Shown one piece after another: positions 10,585 through 47,021 of a stretch of DNA of 47,021 nt. Within the stretch, counting starts at the first letter, position 1. Each line of letters starts with the position of its first letter. The notes beneath the pieces are model-generated. The model saw nothing but the letters and a program-made list of their open reading frames with translations. It did no database searches and was not told the origin of the DNA. The DNA comes from Bacteroidales bacterium. Its GTDB lineage: Bacteria; Bacteroidota; Bacteroidia; Bacteroidales; P3. The stretch spans positions 1 to 47,021 of the forward strand of contig JAFTBM010000049.1 of assembly GCA_017455205.1 (NCBI GenBank), read 5' to 3'. Both the position numbers and the translations under genes were made by a program.

Positions 10585-10592
10585 TACCTTTG
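10585..10592 (+). promoter_or_regulatory. -7 box upstream of the poly-C lipoprotein gene
   Basis: TACCTTTG followed by CACC is a perfect TAnnTTTG box; the -33 region is only T-rich. Transcription would begin near 10599, about 29 nt before the ATG at 10628. Confidence 0.65.
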
Positions 10593-10647
10593 CACCGCAA
10601 TTGAGGAACGGCATAAGGACACGTATTATGCGTAAGTTGTTGATTAT

Positions 10648-10660
10648 CCCCCCCCCCCCC
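10648..10660 (+). repeat. 13-C homopolymer inside the 5' end of a reading frame
   Basis: Thirteen consecutive C residues seven codons into a frame that starts ATGCGTAAGTTGTTG at 10628. As sequenced the frame stops at TAA 10673-10675. With 12 (or 15) C it runs without interruption into the lipoprotein gene read from 10719. A candidate slipped-strand phase switch, or a homopolymer length error in the assembly. Confidence 0.9.
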
Positions 10661-10718
10661 AAGCGAGGGATGTAATGGTGTAGCCCACAAGCATCATCGC
10701 GGCGGCAAGCCGCAGCGG

Positions 10719-11309
10719 GTGCTGGTGGCAGTGGCGGCGTTGCTATTGGCCGCAGGGTGCATCAAGGATAGTGGAGAGACTGTTTTACTTCCCGTCAGGC
10801 CCACGGCGGTACCCAAATGGGCGATGAGCAAAGAGGTGCGACAAGTGGTGGAGGAATACATGCCCATCTACGAGGGCAATCATCCCCCCAATGTCGAAGG
10901 CTGCTACTGGGTATCCCCCGTGCAGTTGCTGTATGCGTCCGACGGCTGCGATGCCGAGTTCTACGACATGCTTTTTTCGGTGGGAAGTCCCGATGGCATG
11001 GGGCGCACCCCCTACCGCGAGCGTCAGCACCACGTGTCGGGCGATGGCACGCCAGCCTGCATTGTGGGACACGCCGATTGTTTCACGCTCTACACCCTCG
11101 AGCAGGTAGATATGGCCGAGGGTGAAGTCACCTACCAGACGATGACCATCGTCTCGGGGCGTAAACGTGCGGAAGGCATCGTCGACTATCGGCTGGCGCT
11201 GATTATGGTGGAGAAAAGTGCCGACCACGGCCTGCTGGCCGACCAGCAGGTGGTGCGCATCTTTGCCGACGGCGACGGAATAGCCAGAGAAACGGAGGAA
11301 CGCCCATGA
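10719..11309 (+). CDS. Uncharacterised lipoprotein, out of frame with its start codon (candidate phase-variable)
   Basis: 196 residues from the in-frame GTG. It opens VLVAVAALLLAAGC, a lipobox with the Cys at 14, but with no basic n-region. Removing one C from the 13-C tract fuses the frame to ATG 10628, giving MRKLLIIPPPP, then a basic segment (HKHHRGGKPQR) directly before the hydrophobic core. No other ATG lies in this frame between the tract and 10719, so the true start is very likely 10628 and the sequenced allele is OFF. The mature part has no family I recognise; it contains PTAVPKWAMSKEVRQVVEEY and several Cys/Trp/Tyr-rich strands. Its stop overlaps the next start (ATGA at 11306), so the switch could also affect the downstream genes. 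Confidence 0.75.
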   Translation: MLVAVAALLLAAGCIKDSGETVLLPVRPTAVPKWAMSKEVRQVVEEYMPIYEGNHPPNVEGCYWVSPVQLLYASDGCDAEFYDMLFSVGSPDGMGRTPYRERQHHVSGDGTPACIVGHADCFTLYTLEQVDMAEGEVTYQTMTIVSGRKRAEGIVDYRLALIMVEKSADHGLLADQQVVRIFADGDGIARETEERP

Positions 11310-45376: not shown

Positions 45377-45418
45377 ATTTTTTTTCTTATTATTTCATCT
45401 ATTCCGAAAATTAGTTGT

Positions 45419-45426
45419 ACCTTTGC
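45419..45426 (+). promoter_or_regulatory. -7 box of the poly-C adhesin-like gene
   Basis: TACCTTTG followed by CAC, a perfect TAnnTTTG box; a TTTC near 45394-45397 is a possible -33. Start of transcription near 45433, about 57 nt before ATG 45490. Confidence 0.6.
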
Positions 45427-45533
45427 ACTTTGATTATTGGAGATTTCCATGCCGTTGCGTCTGTTCTGCTCGGTTTAGATAGGTTGAAAATGGTGTATGA
45501 TATTCGCATAAATAAGTGTAAATCAACTATTTG

Positions 45534-45546
45534 CCCCCCCCCCCCC
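45534..45546 (+). repeat. 13-C homopolymer inside the 5' end of a reading frame
   Basis: Thirteen C residues, 15 codons into a frame starting ATGGTGTATGATATTCGC at 45490. As sequenced, that frame ends at TAA 45586-45588. With 14 (or 11) C it continues open through the signal peptide and into the large secreted gene. It has the same tract length as at 10648. Confidence 0.9.
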
Positions 45547-45623
45547 GCAGGGCAACCTCTCCCAAGTCAGGAGTTAAATCGCCATTAAGAGCGGTAGGGC
45601 GGAGTGTATTCCTTTCATTTCTT

Positions 45624-47021
45624 ATGGTCGTTGTAGCGTCCATTTCGGCCACTGCTTCACGGGCACAGGGATTAGGTGCGTATGTCTACTCCACTGGAGT
45701 GGATGCTGCCAAATGGATAACCATCACCAACACTACCAACCTGCTCAATGAGTCGGGCGATGCTGCGGCATCGAGCCTGAAAAACATAGGCTTCACATTT
45801 CCTTTTGGCGGTTCCACCTACACCCAGTATTCGGTTACCGTGGATGGCATCCTTCGGATAGGCTCGGATGTTGCTGATGAGAATGTTGCTCCCTACTATC
45901 CACTGGGTGATGAGTTTGGGGGAGTAGAGGATAACAATCCCAAGATTACGGGCTTCGGTGGCGATGGCTATGCCATAGACGGTGTCCACCATGTCTATGC
46001 TCAGACCTTCGGCAACCTGGCGCTCGTGGTAGAGTTTTCCATCGGGACATTTACCTCGCAGAACGACAACAGCAATTCGCTCAAATGGCAGGTACAGCTC
46101 TTCGCCGACGGCACAGTGCGGATTGTCTATGCCTCGACCACGCCAAGTCCATTGAACCCCGAAAACGACTACTTTCAGGTGGGCATGTGCATCAGTGGCA
46201 GCGATGGTTGGATAGTCGATGCCGACCATGTGGCCACCCACTTCAACTCCGATGGCAGCAACGATGTGCGTACCACATGGCCAGGAGCCAACCGCTACTA
46301 CACTTTCTTACCCATCTGCACTGGCACCCTCCCCTACAGCGAGAACTTCGACTCCTACTCTGGCACTGGTATCAGTACGGGTTCAGGCTACCCCTCCACC
46401 TATCCCAACCACCTCGCACCCACCTGCTGGCACTATCCTGCCCTCAGTGCTACCAGCGGCACCTACCCGGCAGTCTACATCACCAGCTATTCCTACTTCC
46501 GCAACGGTGCCTCGGGCAATGGCATTCGCTTCCAGACAAACTCCCGCCATCCCCGTGCCGTGGTTGTCCTTGCCAAGGACTTCGGCCTCCCCAACAGCCG
46601 TCTCGCTTTCTCTTTCGACCTCAAGGTGAACAATGCCTCCCACATGATGGAGTACGGCGTCATGTCCAACCCCGCCGACACCTCCACCTTCATCCCCCTC
46701 GGTTATTCCGACTATGTGGGCTGGAAGACTATAACCGACACGCTCTCCAAGTACGCCGACCGTATTCCCGCTGTCGGCACGCTCTACCTTGCGTTCCGCG
46801 AGTCGAAGCAGACTGCCGGTGAAGCCAACTACTCCGGCGGTCTCGACAATGTCTCCGTCCGCCGCTGGTGTGACAGCACTACCCAGAACGTTACCGCCTG
46901 CGAAAGCTACACCTGGGCCGAGAACTCCACCACCTACACCGAGACAGGCATCTACCGCAAAGTCTACACCAACGCCCACGGCGGCTGCGACTCCACCGTC
47001 CGCCTCAACCTGACCATCAAC
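45624..47021 (+). CDS. Large secreted adhesin-like protein, partial, out of frame with its likely start codon
   Basis: Runs off the window end. From the first in-frame ATG it reads MVVVASISATASRAQGLGAY, a signal-peptide core without a basic n-region. Shifting the 13-C tract by +1 joins it to ATG 45490 and supplies PLRAVGRSVFLSFL before the core. Visible parts: a beta domain (WITITNTTNLLNESGDAAAS, FTFPFGG, FADGTVRIVYAS) of the kind found in T9SS-secreted proteins; a MAM-like/cleaved-adhesin domain (LPYSENFDSYSG, AFSFDLKVNNASHMMEYGVM, GGLDNVSVRRW); then the first CDST...ACESYTWAENSTTYTETG...GCDSTVRLNLTIN repeat. More repeats and a sorting domain would be expected beyond the edge. Likely a surface adhesin, candidate phase-variable. 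Confidence 0.82.
   Translation, partial: MVVVASISATASRAQGLGAYVYSTGVDAAKWITITNTTNLLNESGDAAASSLKNIGFTFPFGGSTYTQYSVTVDGILRIGSDVADENVAPYYPLGDEFGGVEDNNPKITGFGGDGYAIDGVHHVYAQTFGNLALVVEFSIGTFTSQNDNSNSLKWQVQLFADGTVRIVYASTTPSPLNPENDYFQVGMCISGSDGWIVDADHVATHFNSDGSNDVRTTWPGANRYYTFLPICTGTLPYSENFDSYSGTGISTGSGYPSTYPNHLAPTCWHYPALSATSGTYPAVYITSYSYFRNGASGNGIRFQTNSRHPRAVVVLAKDFGLPNSRLAFSFDLKVNNASHMMEYGVMSNPADTSTFIPLGYSDYVGWKTITDTLSKYADRIPAVGTLYLAFRESKQTAGEANYSGGLDNVSVRRWCDSTTQNVTACESYTWAENSTTYTETGIYRKVYTNAHGGCDSTVRLNLTIN

Follow-up and report, generated by a model that had tools for sequence, protein, structure and literature searches.

The window analysed here, a stretch of 47,021 nucleotides, is the complete contig C30 of a 2.17-Mb, 69-contig genome that is 93% complete and probably comes from an uncultured gut or rumen member of the Bacteroidales. 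Close to its 3′ end lies a run of 13 cytosines, set between an upstream start codon and the signal peptide of a very large secreted-protein gene. The features of this locus, hereafter the 45534 locus, are as follows.

45418 to 45425, + strand: −7 promoter box TACCTTTG, of the Bacteroidota TAnnTTTG type, with the consensus as in the accessible part of PMC7366714
45490 to 45588, + strand: short ORF of 32 residues (MVYDIRINKCKSTICPPPP...), starting at the ATG, crossing the C tract, and closed by TAA, its frame given by the assembled tract length
45534 to 45546, + strand: 13-C tract, a putative slip site, proline coding in the frame of the ATG
45549 to 45665, + strand: signal-peptide part of the long frame, with a basic stretch and a hydrophobic core; cleavage site placed by eye
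45549 to 47021, + strand: 5′ part of a giant secreted-protein gene, ending at the contig end; assigned from homologous open frames

The first-pass annotation had described a box, an ATG at 45490, exactly 13 C's, and a stop at 45586 at this site, and a letter-by-letter check bears out each of these, with the TAA of the ATG frame occupying 45586 to 45588. The second open frame that it had described, running from the tract through a signal peptide into a long secreted protein, was confirmed by a check of frames and stops. In the frame offset by 2 after the tract, all 491 codons as far as position 47021, where the contig ends, are free of stops, compared to 17 and 9 stops in the other two frames of the same 1,470 nt, and this frame reads ...KSGVKSPLRAVGRSVFLSFLMVVVASISATASRAQGLGAY, a basic stretch followed by a hydrophobic core. 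Since the window is the whole of contig C30, the giant gene is truncated on its 3′ side. A codon scan of the long frame between the tract and position 45624 returned no ATG, GTG, or TTG; the first ATG after the tract is the one at 45624, within the hydrophobic core. Given this placement, with no start before 45624 and the other frames closed, a change in tract length is predicted to alter the frame of the product. The tract lies 116 nt from the −7 box, and the short ORF MVYDIRINKCKSTICPPPP contains Pro-Pro-Pro. No terminator-like sites were found in 45380 to 45900, where shuffled sequences gave a mean of 0.6.

The giant protein belongs to a family with matches in 82 of 120 genomes of the genus, and among the matches listed most homologous open frames exceed 1,000 residues, with the longest reaching 8,794. 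No close orthologue of the window's gene was found in the 119 other genomes searched (best identity, 48%), and its best match within its own genome is 56%. From other genomes of the genus we fetched 42 homologues with their N termini; the matches listed include many more. In all 42, an ATG stands directly before the signal-peptide core (MKKxxxxLxxxAAL..AQ type), mostly with Lys or Arg soon behind the start Met, and none has a run of at least 7 C's within up to 250 nt upstream. Eight family members in the window's own genome have a reachable N terminus; six of them carry their own ATG (on C21, C25, C28, C40, C41, and C53), and only those on C30 and C50 bear a tract in its place. The C50 paralogue has a tract of 11 C's that is in register with its ATG, and its frame has no stop over the 1,829 codons that the stretch taken covers; the same design is therefore also found in an in-register state. 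The paralogue on C28, which has a native start, also shows a very long stretch ahead of the core, so a long n-region seems to be tolerated.

The description of this gene as adhesin-like in the first-pass annotation is a fair guess, no more: its signal peptide is of the secreted type by eye, but searches of the fragment and its N-terminal domain against Pfam and NCBIfam returned no match. A single PDB match to the N-terminal part (E, 0.21) yields no domain identity, and a match to a Mediator model in one of 30 family members (E, 0.0063) was taken as chance. The paralogue on C41 (2,892 aa) carries fn3 repeats, choice-of-anchor J, MAM, and a T9SS sorting domain, and the genome holds 32 matches to TIGR04183 (27 above the cutoff), all of them elsewhere than in the truncated window gene. 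The window's giant protein may be exported by the T9SS, with the C30 copy putatively exposed at the surface.

Long C runs are far more frequent in this genome than chance would predict. Under a first-order Markov model of the window (53.7% GC), runs of at least 13 C's are expected 0.003 times per window and 0.12 times per genome, compared to 12 rows, or 11 loci, found in the genome, two rows of the C-run table being a single locus split by a contig break. Runs of at least 11 C's number 17 rows (16 distinct loci) against approximately 1.6 expected, while runs of at least 9 (34 rows, 33 loci, against 22.6 expected) show no clear excess. Within the window, the C or G runs other than the two of 13 are at most 7 long. 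A −7 box lies within 200 nt upstream of runs of at least 9 in 10 of 34 rows on the C strand and in 0 of 34 on the G strand, a count in which rows at contig ends contribute little flank. The first-pass annotation had proposed a genome-wide family of poly-C switches rather than chance and had given the absence of other such tracts from the genome as a case against it. The excess over chance, with 16 loci of at least 11 C's, upholds part of the proposal; the shared layout is not supported as stated, since many runs end a leader ORF, as described below.

In five exported-type genes of this genome, a C run lies between an upstream ATG and the signal peptide, an arrangement that we refer to as fused. 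These are the C30 and C50 genes, two tandem lipoprotein-type genes on C20 (L015) that were judged by eye, and a lipoprotein-type frame behind the other 13-C run of the window, laid out as follows.

10585 to 10660, + strand: −7 box, ATG at 10628, leader ORF MRKLLIIPPPP, and 13-C tract at 10648 to 10660
10662 to 11306, + strand: lipoprotein-type frame after the tract, out of register with the upstream ATG as assembled

As assembled, two of the five fused genes are in register and three are out, a split that fits random switching, though five genes are few. The four loci other than 45534 offer a GTG or TTG behind the tract from which translation could begin (at C50, TTG lies 27 and 63 nt after the tract; GTG codons at the core edge of the 10662 to 11306 frame are possible starts), and the argument for a class is weakened accordingly. 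The 45534 locus is the cleanest of the five.

Tracts of 10 to 19 C's or G's were also observed at the start of genes or inside them on C64 (L040, L041, and L042) and at the end of C27 (L017). The domains of these genes are formyl transferase (C13), acyltransferase 3 (18/19), RraA-like (19), and DUF6625 (C10); some are in register and some out, and they likely form a further, separate class of phase-variable genes. One tract is followed by the same 19 nt on contigs C27 and C64, with 18 C's on the former and at least 19 on the latter; this is the only hint of a length mixture, and it may be a sequencing or assembly error. At the end of C22 (L175) and the start of C28 (L018), promoter regions that are homologous by eye carry a C run in one case and apparently a G run on the same strand in the other, which seems to reflect misassembly or local inversion at the tract.

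We searched 119 genomes of the genus for the pattern TTTG-N40-70-C8 and afterwards fetched 40 stretches, six from the window's own genome and the remainder from relatives picked by eye. Many C runs of the relatives end a short ORF with a conserved peptide (e.g., MQKVSIYNSLIITPP, MDGIMACNRLTITPP, and MPRLLNHNCLTITPP). The pattern gave 13 rows (at most 12 tracts) in the own genome against 1 in a reversed control, but it was rejected as genus-wide evidence since several relatives had no excess, and for that reason we rely on a model and on frame tests. The leader element that emerges consists of a promoter, a short ORF ending in N-x-L-I-[IVFL]-T-P-P, sometimes a terminator-like hairpin, and, in most cases, a following exported gene that has a start of its own. 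R1, a sequence-only model, was built from 21 aligned segments chosen by eye and reaching from the box to the first C's. At an E value of 0.01 or better, it matched 75 of 121 genomes of the family, in 9 of 12 genera. At 0.001 it matched 49 of the 121 (best-E column), 42 of them in the window's own genus; in a sample of 149 genomes from the order, matches at this threshold were confined to the own genome and two more. Since matches concentrate in the family and genus and are nearly absent across the order, these searches place the leader as a family-level element centred on the genus. A scan of genome contigs for the leader pattern returned 17 stretches, 16 of which came from Bacteroidales/Bacteroidetes, Prevotellaceae, Porphyromonadaceae, or Paludibacteraceae MAGs and one from Chlorobiota; when such contigs were scanned with the fragment of the giant protein instead, no relative turned up. 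Weak R1 hits include promoter-only chance matches; 60 further ones were fetched, of which 32 show the peptide by pattern, one of these (L280) being a false positive. An Rfam family was also sought for nine tract loci, and the four matches at an E value of 1 or better were not near the gathering score.

The frame tests bear on whether the leader is translated. We recovered 44 loci with TAA-N4-[CT]TGA behind a −7 box, 40 of which are not training sequences and include related, nonindependent copies. The leader frame has an ATG and no intervening stop in 37 of these 40, compared to 6 and 9 for the other two frames. An in-frame ATG is also present in 27 of the 29 loci supplied by R1 outside the own genome (L186 to L214), three of which (L188, L190, and L191) are training loci. 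Leader residues are kept through synonymous or conservative change, with Leu encoded by CTG or TTG and the hydrophobic residue specified by ATC, TTC, CTC, or GTC. Among 54 nonredundant leaders, selected by peptide pattern and including training members, the codon ahead of Asn/Lys ends in T in 51 (CAT in 25 and CAC in none, compared to 116 CAC and 51 CAT in the window's genes), and Leu is CTG or TTG in 52; owing to these nucleotide constraints, TAA and TGA are kept in the two other frames. The spacing between the start of the box and the last base of the first Pro codon comes to 70 to 71 nt in 28 of the 54, while the position of the ATG varies, and a DNA- or RNA-level role behind this fixed spacing is possible. 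The C run itself is less constant. R1 was trained on runs of at least 8 C's, and of 32 held-out leaders 17 have at least 8 and 15 have 2 to 6, with several ending TPT, TTP, or TSP. The conserved part is the leader, not the homopolymer.

Several observations concern how leaders are arranged. In genome G020, three loci (L259, L261, and L281) have the leader motif and C run approximately 60 to 70 nt upstream of another −7 box, so the leader is not always the first element after a promoter. Four similar leader copies in the own genome (L005, L027, L028, and L031; L005 without the promoter part) have tracts of 10 to 16 C's followed by GC-rich and terminator-like stems, by eye. Leader cassettes appear to have been copied between genes, since the similar L027 and L031 precede different exported genes. 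A subfamily of leaders (L192, L195, L197, L199, L203, L208, L238, L239, L241, and L255) likewise precedes different lipoprotein or other genes across genomes, pointing to swapping of leaders between genes.

With this element defined, the two tract loci of the window can be compared. The first-pass annotation had given them the same architecture, and they do agree in having a −7 box, an ATG, and 13 C's. They differ in how far the tract lies from the box (63 nt at 10648 compared to 116 nt at 45534) and in their relation to the leader model, which matches only at 10648 (43.2 bits, as a member of the training set). At the 45534 locus, R1 gave no significant match, only two weak pieces (45418 to 45437, 6.5 bits, E of 0.84; 45502 to 45541, 3.6 bits, E of 7.1). 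Its short ORF has C-K-S-x-I-x-P-P in common with the leader consensus, and the locus may be a fused derivative of the leader element; with only 6.5 and 3.6 bits there, the case for such descent is weak.

According to a script, a signal-peptide-like gene with its own ATG follows 48 of 56 leaders at a median distance of 149 nt; the exported gene's own ATG usually lies tens to hundreds of nucleotides after the leader. The first downstream gene has a lipoprotein-type start after 27 of 52 leaders, compared to 5 of 91 genes behind other −7 boxes, and an acidic stretch follows the Cys in 20 of the 27, a feature that recalls a signal reportedly described for surface export. Plain signal peptides were counted in 40 of 52 genes after leaders and in 45 of 91 controls, the latter count being inflated by loci picked as giant-protein homologues. 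Terminator-like hairpins of −12 kcal/mol or better occur within 230 nt past the leader in 19 of 56 cases, compared to 13 of 224 shuffles and 1 of 53 stretches within genes, leaving 37 of 56 leaders with no strong hairpin. In a subfamily of eight aligned leader copies, a hairpin with one double-sided change is predicted, as is pairing of the last C's of the tract with a downstream GGG; the covariation term is unfavourable (+0.94).

Whether the leader ORF stops before the hairpin or passes it depends on the frame. Hairpins of −10 or better accompany 20 leaders; the leader ORF stops before the hairpin in 10 and passes it in 10, and in 18 of the 20 both outcomes occur among the three possible frames. 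Two pairs of near-identical leaders and genes from two genomes (L217/L158 and L118/L159) differ in having 8 and 9 C's, and their leaders end before and after the hairpin. In 30 of 48 leaders, at least one of the three frames stays open until 30 nt or less before the gene (200 shuffles: mean, 22.5; maximum, 29). For the frame in use, this applies to 16 of 48 (mean for shuffles, 11.1; maximum, 18); this frame is not significantly longer, and because it is no more open than in shuffles, a reading of the leaders as attenuators is weakened. We offer only tentatively the broader proposal of a lineage-specific regulon of phase-variable attenuators, in which a conserved [HCYRS]-N-x-L-[IT]-[IVFL]-T-P-P leader would precede many surface-lipoprotein and secreted-protein genes of the genus, the C run that often makes up its Pro codons would serve both to pause the ribosome and as a slip site setting whether translation stops before a terminator hairpin or runs through it, and the giant gene of the window, with the leader fused to it, would have been derived from this arrangement.

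For the 45534 locus itself, the best reading, to which we give a probability of roughly 60%, is that the tract is a slip-prone ON/OFF switch for translation of the giant exported-protein gene, assembled in the OFF state. Transcription would be initiated from the −7 box at 45418 and translation from the ATG at 45490, and the ribosome would have to cross the 13 C's before reaching the signal peptide. Slippage during replication would change the length of the tract and with it the frame, such that some cells would make the signal peptide and giant protein and others a dead-end peptide like the assembled one. The segment resembles the leader element (promoter, short ORF ending ..LIITPPP, exported gene) and may derive from it, the gene's own start having been lost when leader and gene were fused. 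Slippage, ON/OFF expression, and leader descent at this locus are each conjectural steps, and a long, polyproline-bearing n-region is atypical of signal peptides, which counts against the switch.

The tract might instead be the polyproline end of a regulatory leader ORF, with the giant gene permanently off after loss of its native start. Many C runs behind promoters in the genus do form the end of a conserved leader ORF, the short or broken runs in 15 of the 32 held-out leaders mean that a long run is not necessarily a switch, and the assembled frame at 45534 is off. However, a decayed gene would soon lose its openness, and here all 491 codons to the contig end are open; the C50 paralogue of the same design is in register, and the locus lacks a match to the leader model. 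We consider this reading unlikely. Still less probable is an error in the assembled tract length, with the giant gene in fact in frame and always expressed. Runs such as C13 are hard for short-read sequencing, and five contigs (C7, C22, C27, C28, and C64) end at or within approximately 20 nt of C runs, yet three of the five fused loci are out of register, and an error in length would still leave runs of 11 to 19 C's that are rare by chance.

Ribosomal frameshifting or RNA polymerase slippage on the C run could yield some protein at every length, with the tract tuning its level. CCC-C runs are known slippery sites, but the offset between start and signal-peptide frame varies among the fused loci, and a programmed shift needs one fixed offset; programmed frameshifting was rejected on these grounds, and we regard this reading as a whole as improbable. 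A protein beginning at the ATG at 45624, with the upstream part irrelevant, is the case that the first-pass annotation had itself named against a switch. That codon is the first ATG of the long frame past the tract, but it falls within the hydrophobic core and is not separated from it by any basic residue, and in all 42 fetched homologues the signal peptide begins upstream of the equivalent point. Such a start is contradicted by these comparisons and can be given hardly any weight.

Switching by poly-C tracts is already known; it is the Bacteroidales setting and the leader that set the present case apart. Phase-variable surface genes of Neisseria, Helicobacter, and Campylobacter have, as here, a poly-C or poly-G homopolymer in the 5′ part of the coding sequence whose length sets the frame, and in those organisms too there are several such genes per genome, also outside the class of surface proteins. 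The present case differs in its Bacteroidales host, in its TAnnTTTG promoter, in the placement of the tract, which follows an upstream start and precedes a signal peptide that is otherwise complete, and in being known from sequence alone. In titles, abstract openings, and a literature sample with few subscription papers, we found no account of poly-C phase variation or of a polyproline leader in Bacteroidales.

The leader family, as distinct from the 45534 locus, has a parallel in Streptococcus gallolyticus, in which, according to the accessible part of PMC3894217, the Pil1 and Pil3 pili vary through GCAGA repeats in leader peptides before the pilus operons. In both systems, the repeat lies in a leader ORF and a hairpin between leader and surface gene, and in Pil1, as in the leader family, the frame after the repeat puts the leader stop before or after that hairpin (PMC3894217, same part). 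Unlike in S. gallolyticus, the repeats here are Pro-coding C runs ahead of dispersed exported-protein genes, known from their sequences, and strong hairpins accompany only 19 of 56 leaders; the 45534 locus, unlike Pil1, has neither a separate leader nor a terminator-like site that we could find. Coupling of EF-P-dependent polyproline pausing to transcription termination has been shown in E. coli (PMC5021804, in the part available). By analogy, Pro-Pro codons near the promoter could pause the ribosome and so affect a downstream terminator (PMC5021804, likewise in part); in the present genomes, what is seen is the codons and the hairpins.

In gut Bacteroidales, phase variation is generally attributed to invertible DNA, and the invertible promoters of Bacteroides underlie ON/OFF variation of surface components in this order. 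Unlike those promoters, which are mentioned in the accessible part of PMC3090145, the leaders show no inverted copy of their motif (allowing up to five mismatches) in any of 34 loci long enough to be tested, and invertible DNA was rejected as an explanation. Around the two window loci, the only inverted match is one of 13 nt, 13 kb distant. In the parts of the literature seen, leader sORFs have been noted in 5′ UTRs of B. thetaiotaomicron (PMC7366714) and slippage has been remarked on for polysaccharide loci of B. fragilis (PMC3090145).

If the switch reading is true, a repertoire of homopolymer tracts on secreted-protein and polysaccharide-type genes would constitute a second route to surface diversity in these organisms, one accessible through metagenome reads. 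Of greater importance than the single gene may be the leader element, a candidate regulatory peptide common to many exported-protein genes. With its conserved Pro-Pro end, and a terminator-like hairpin in a third of the cases tested, the leader permits a direct test of whether ribosome pausing at proline controls surface composition in Bacteroidota.
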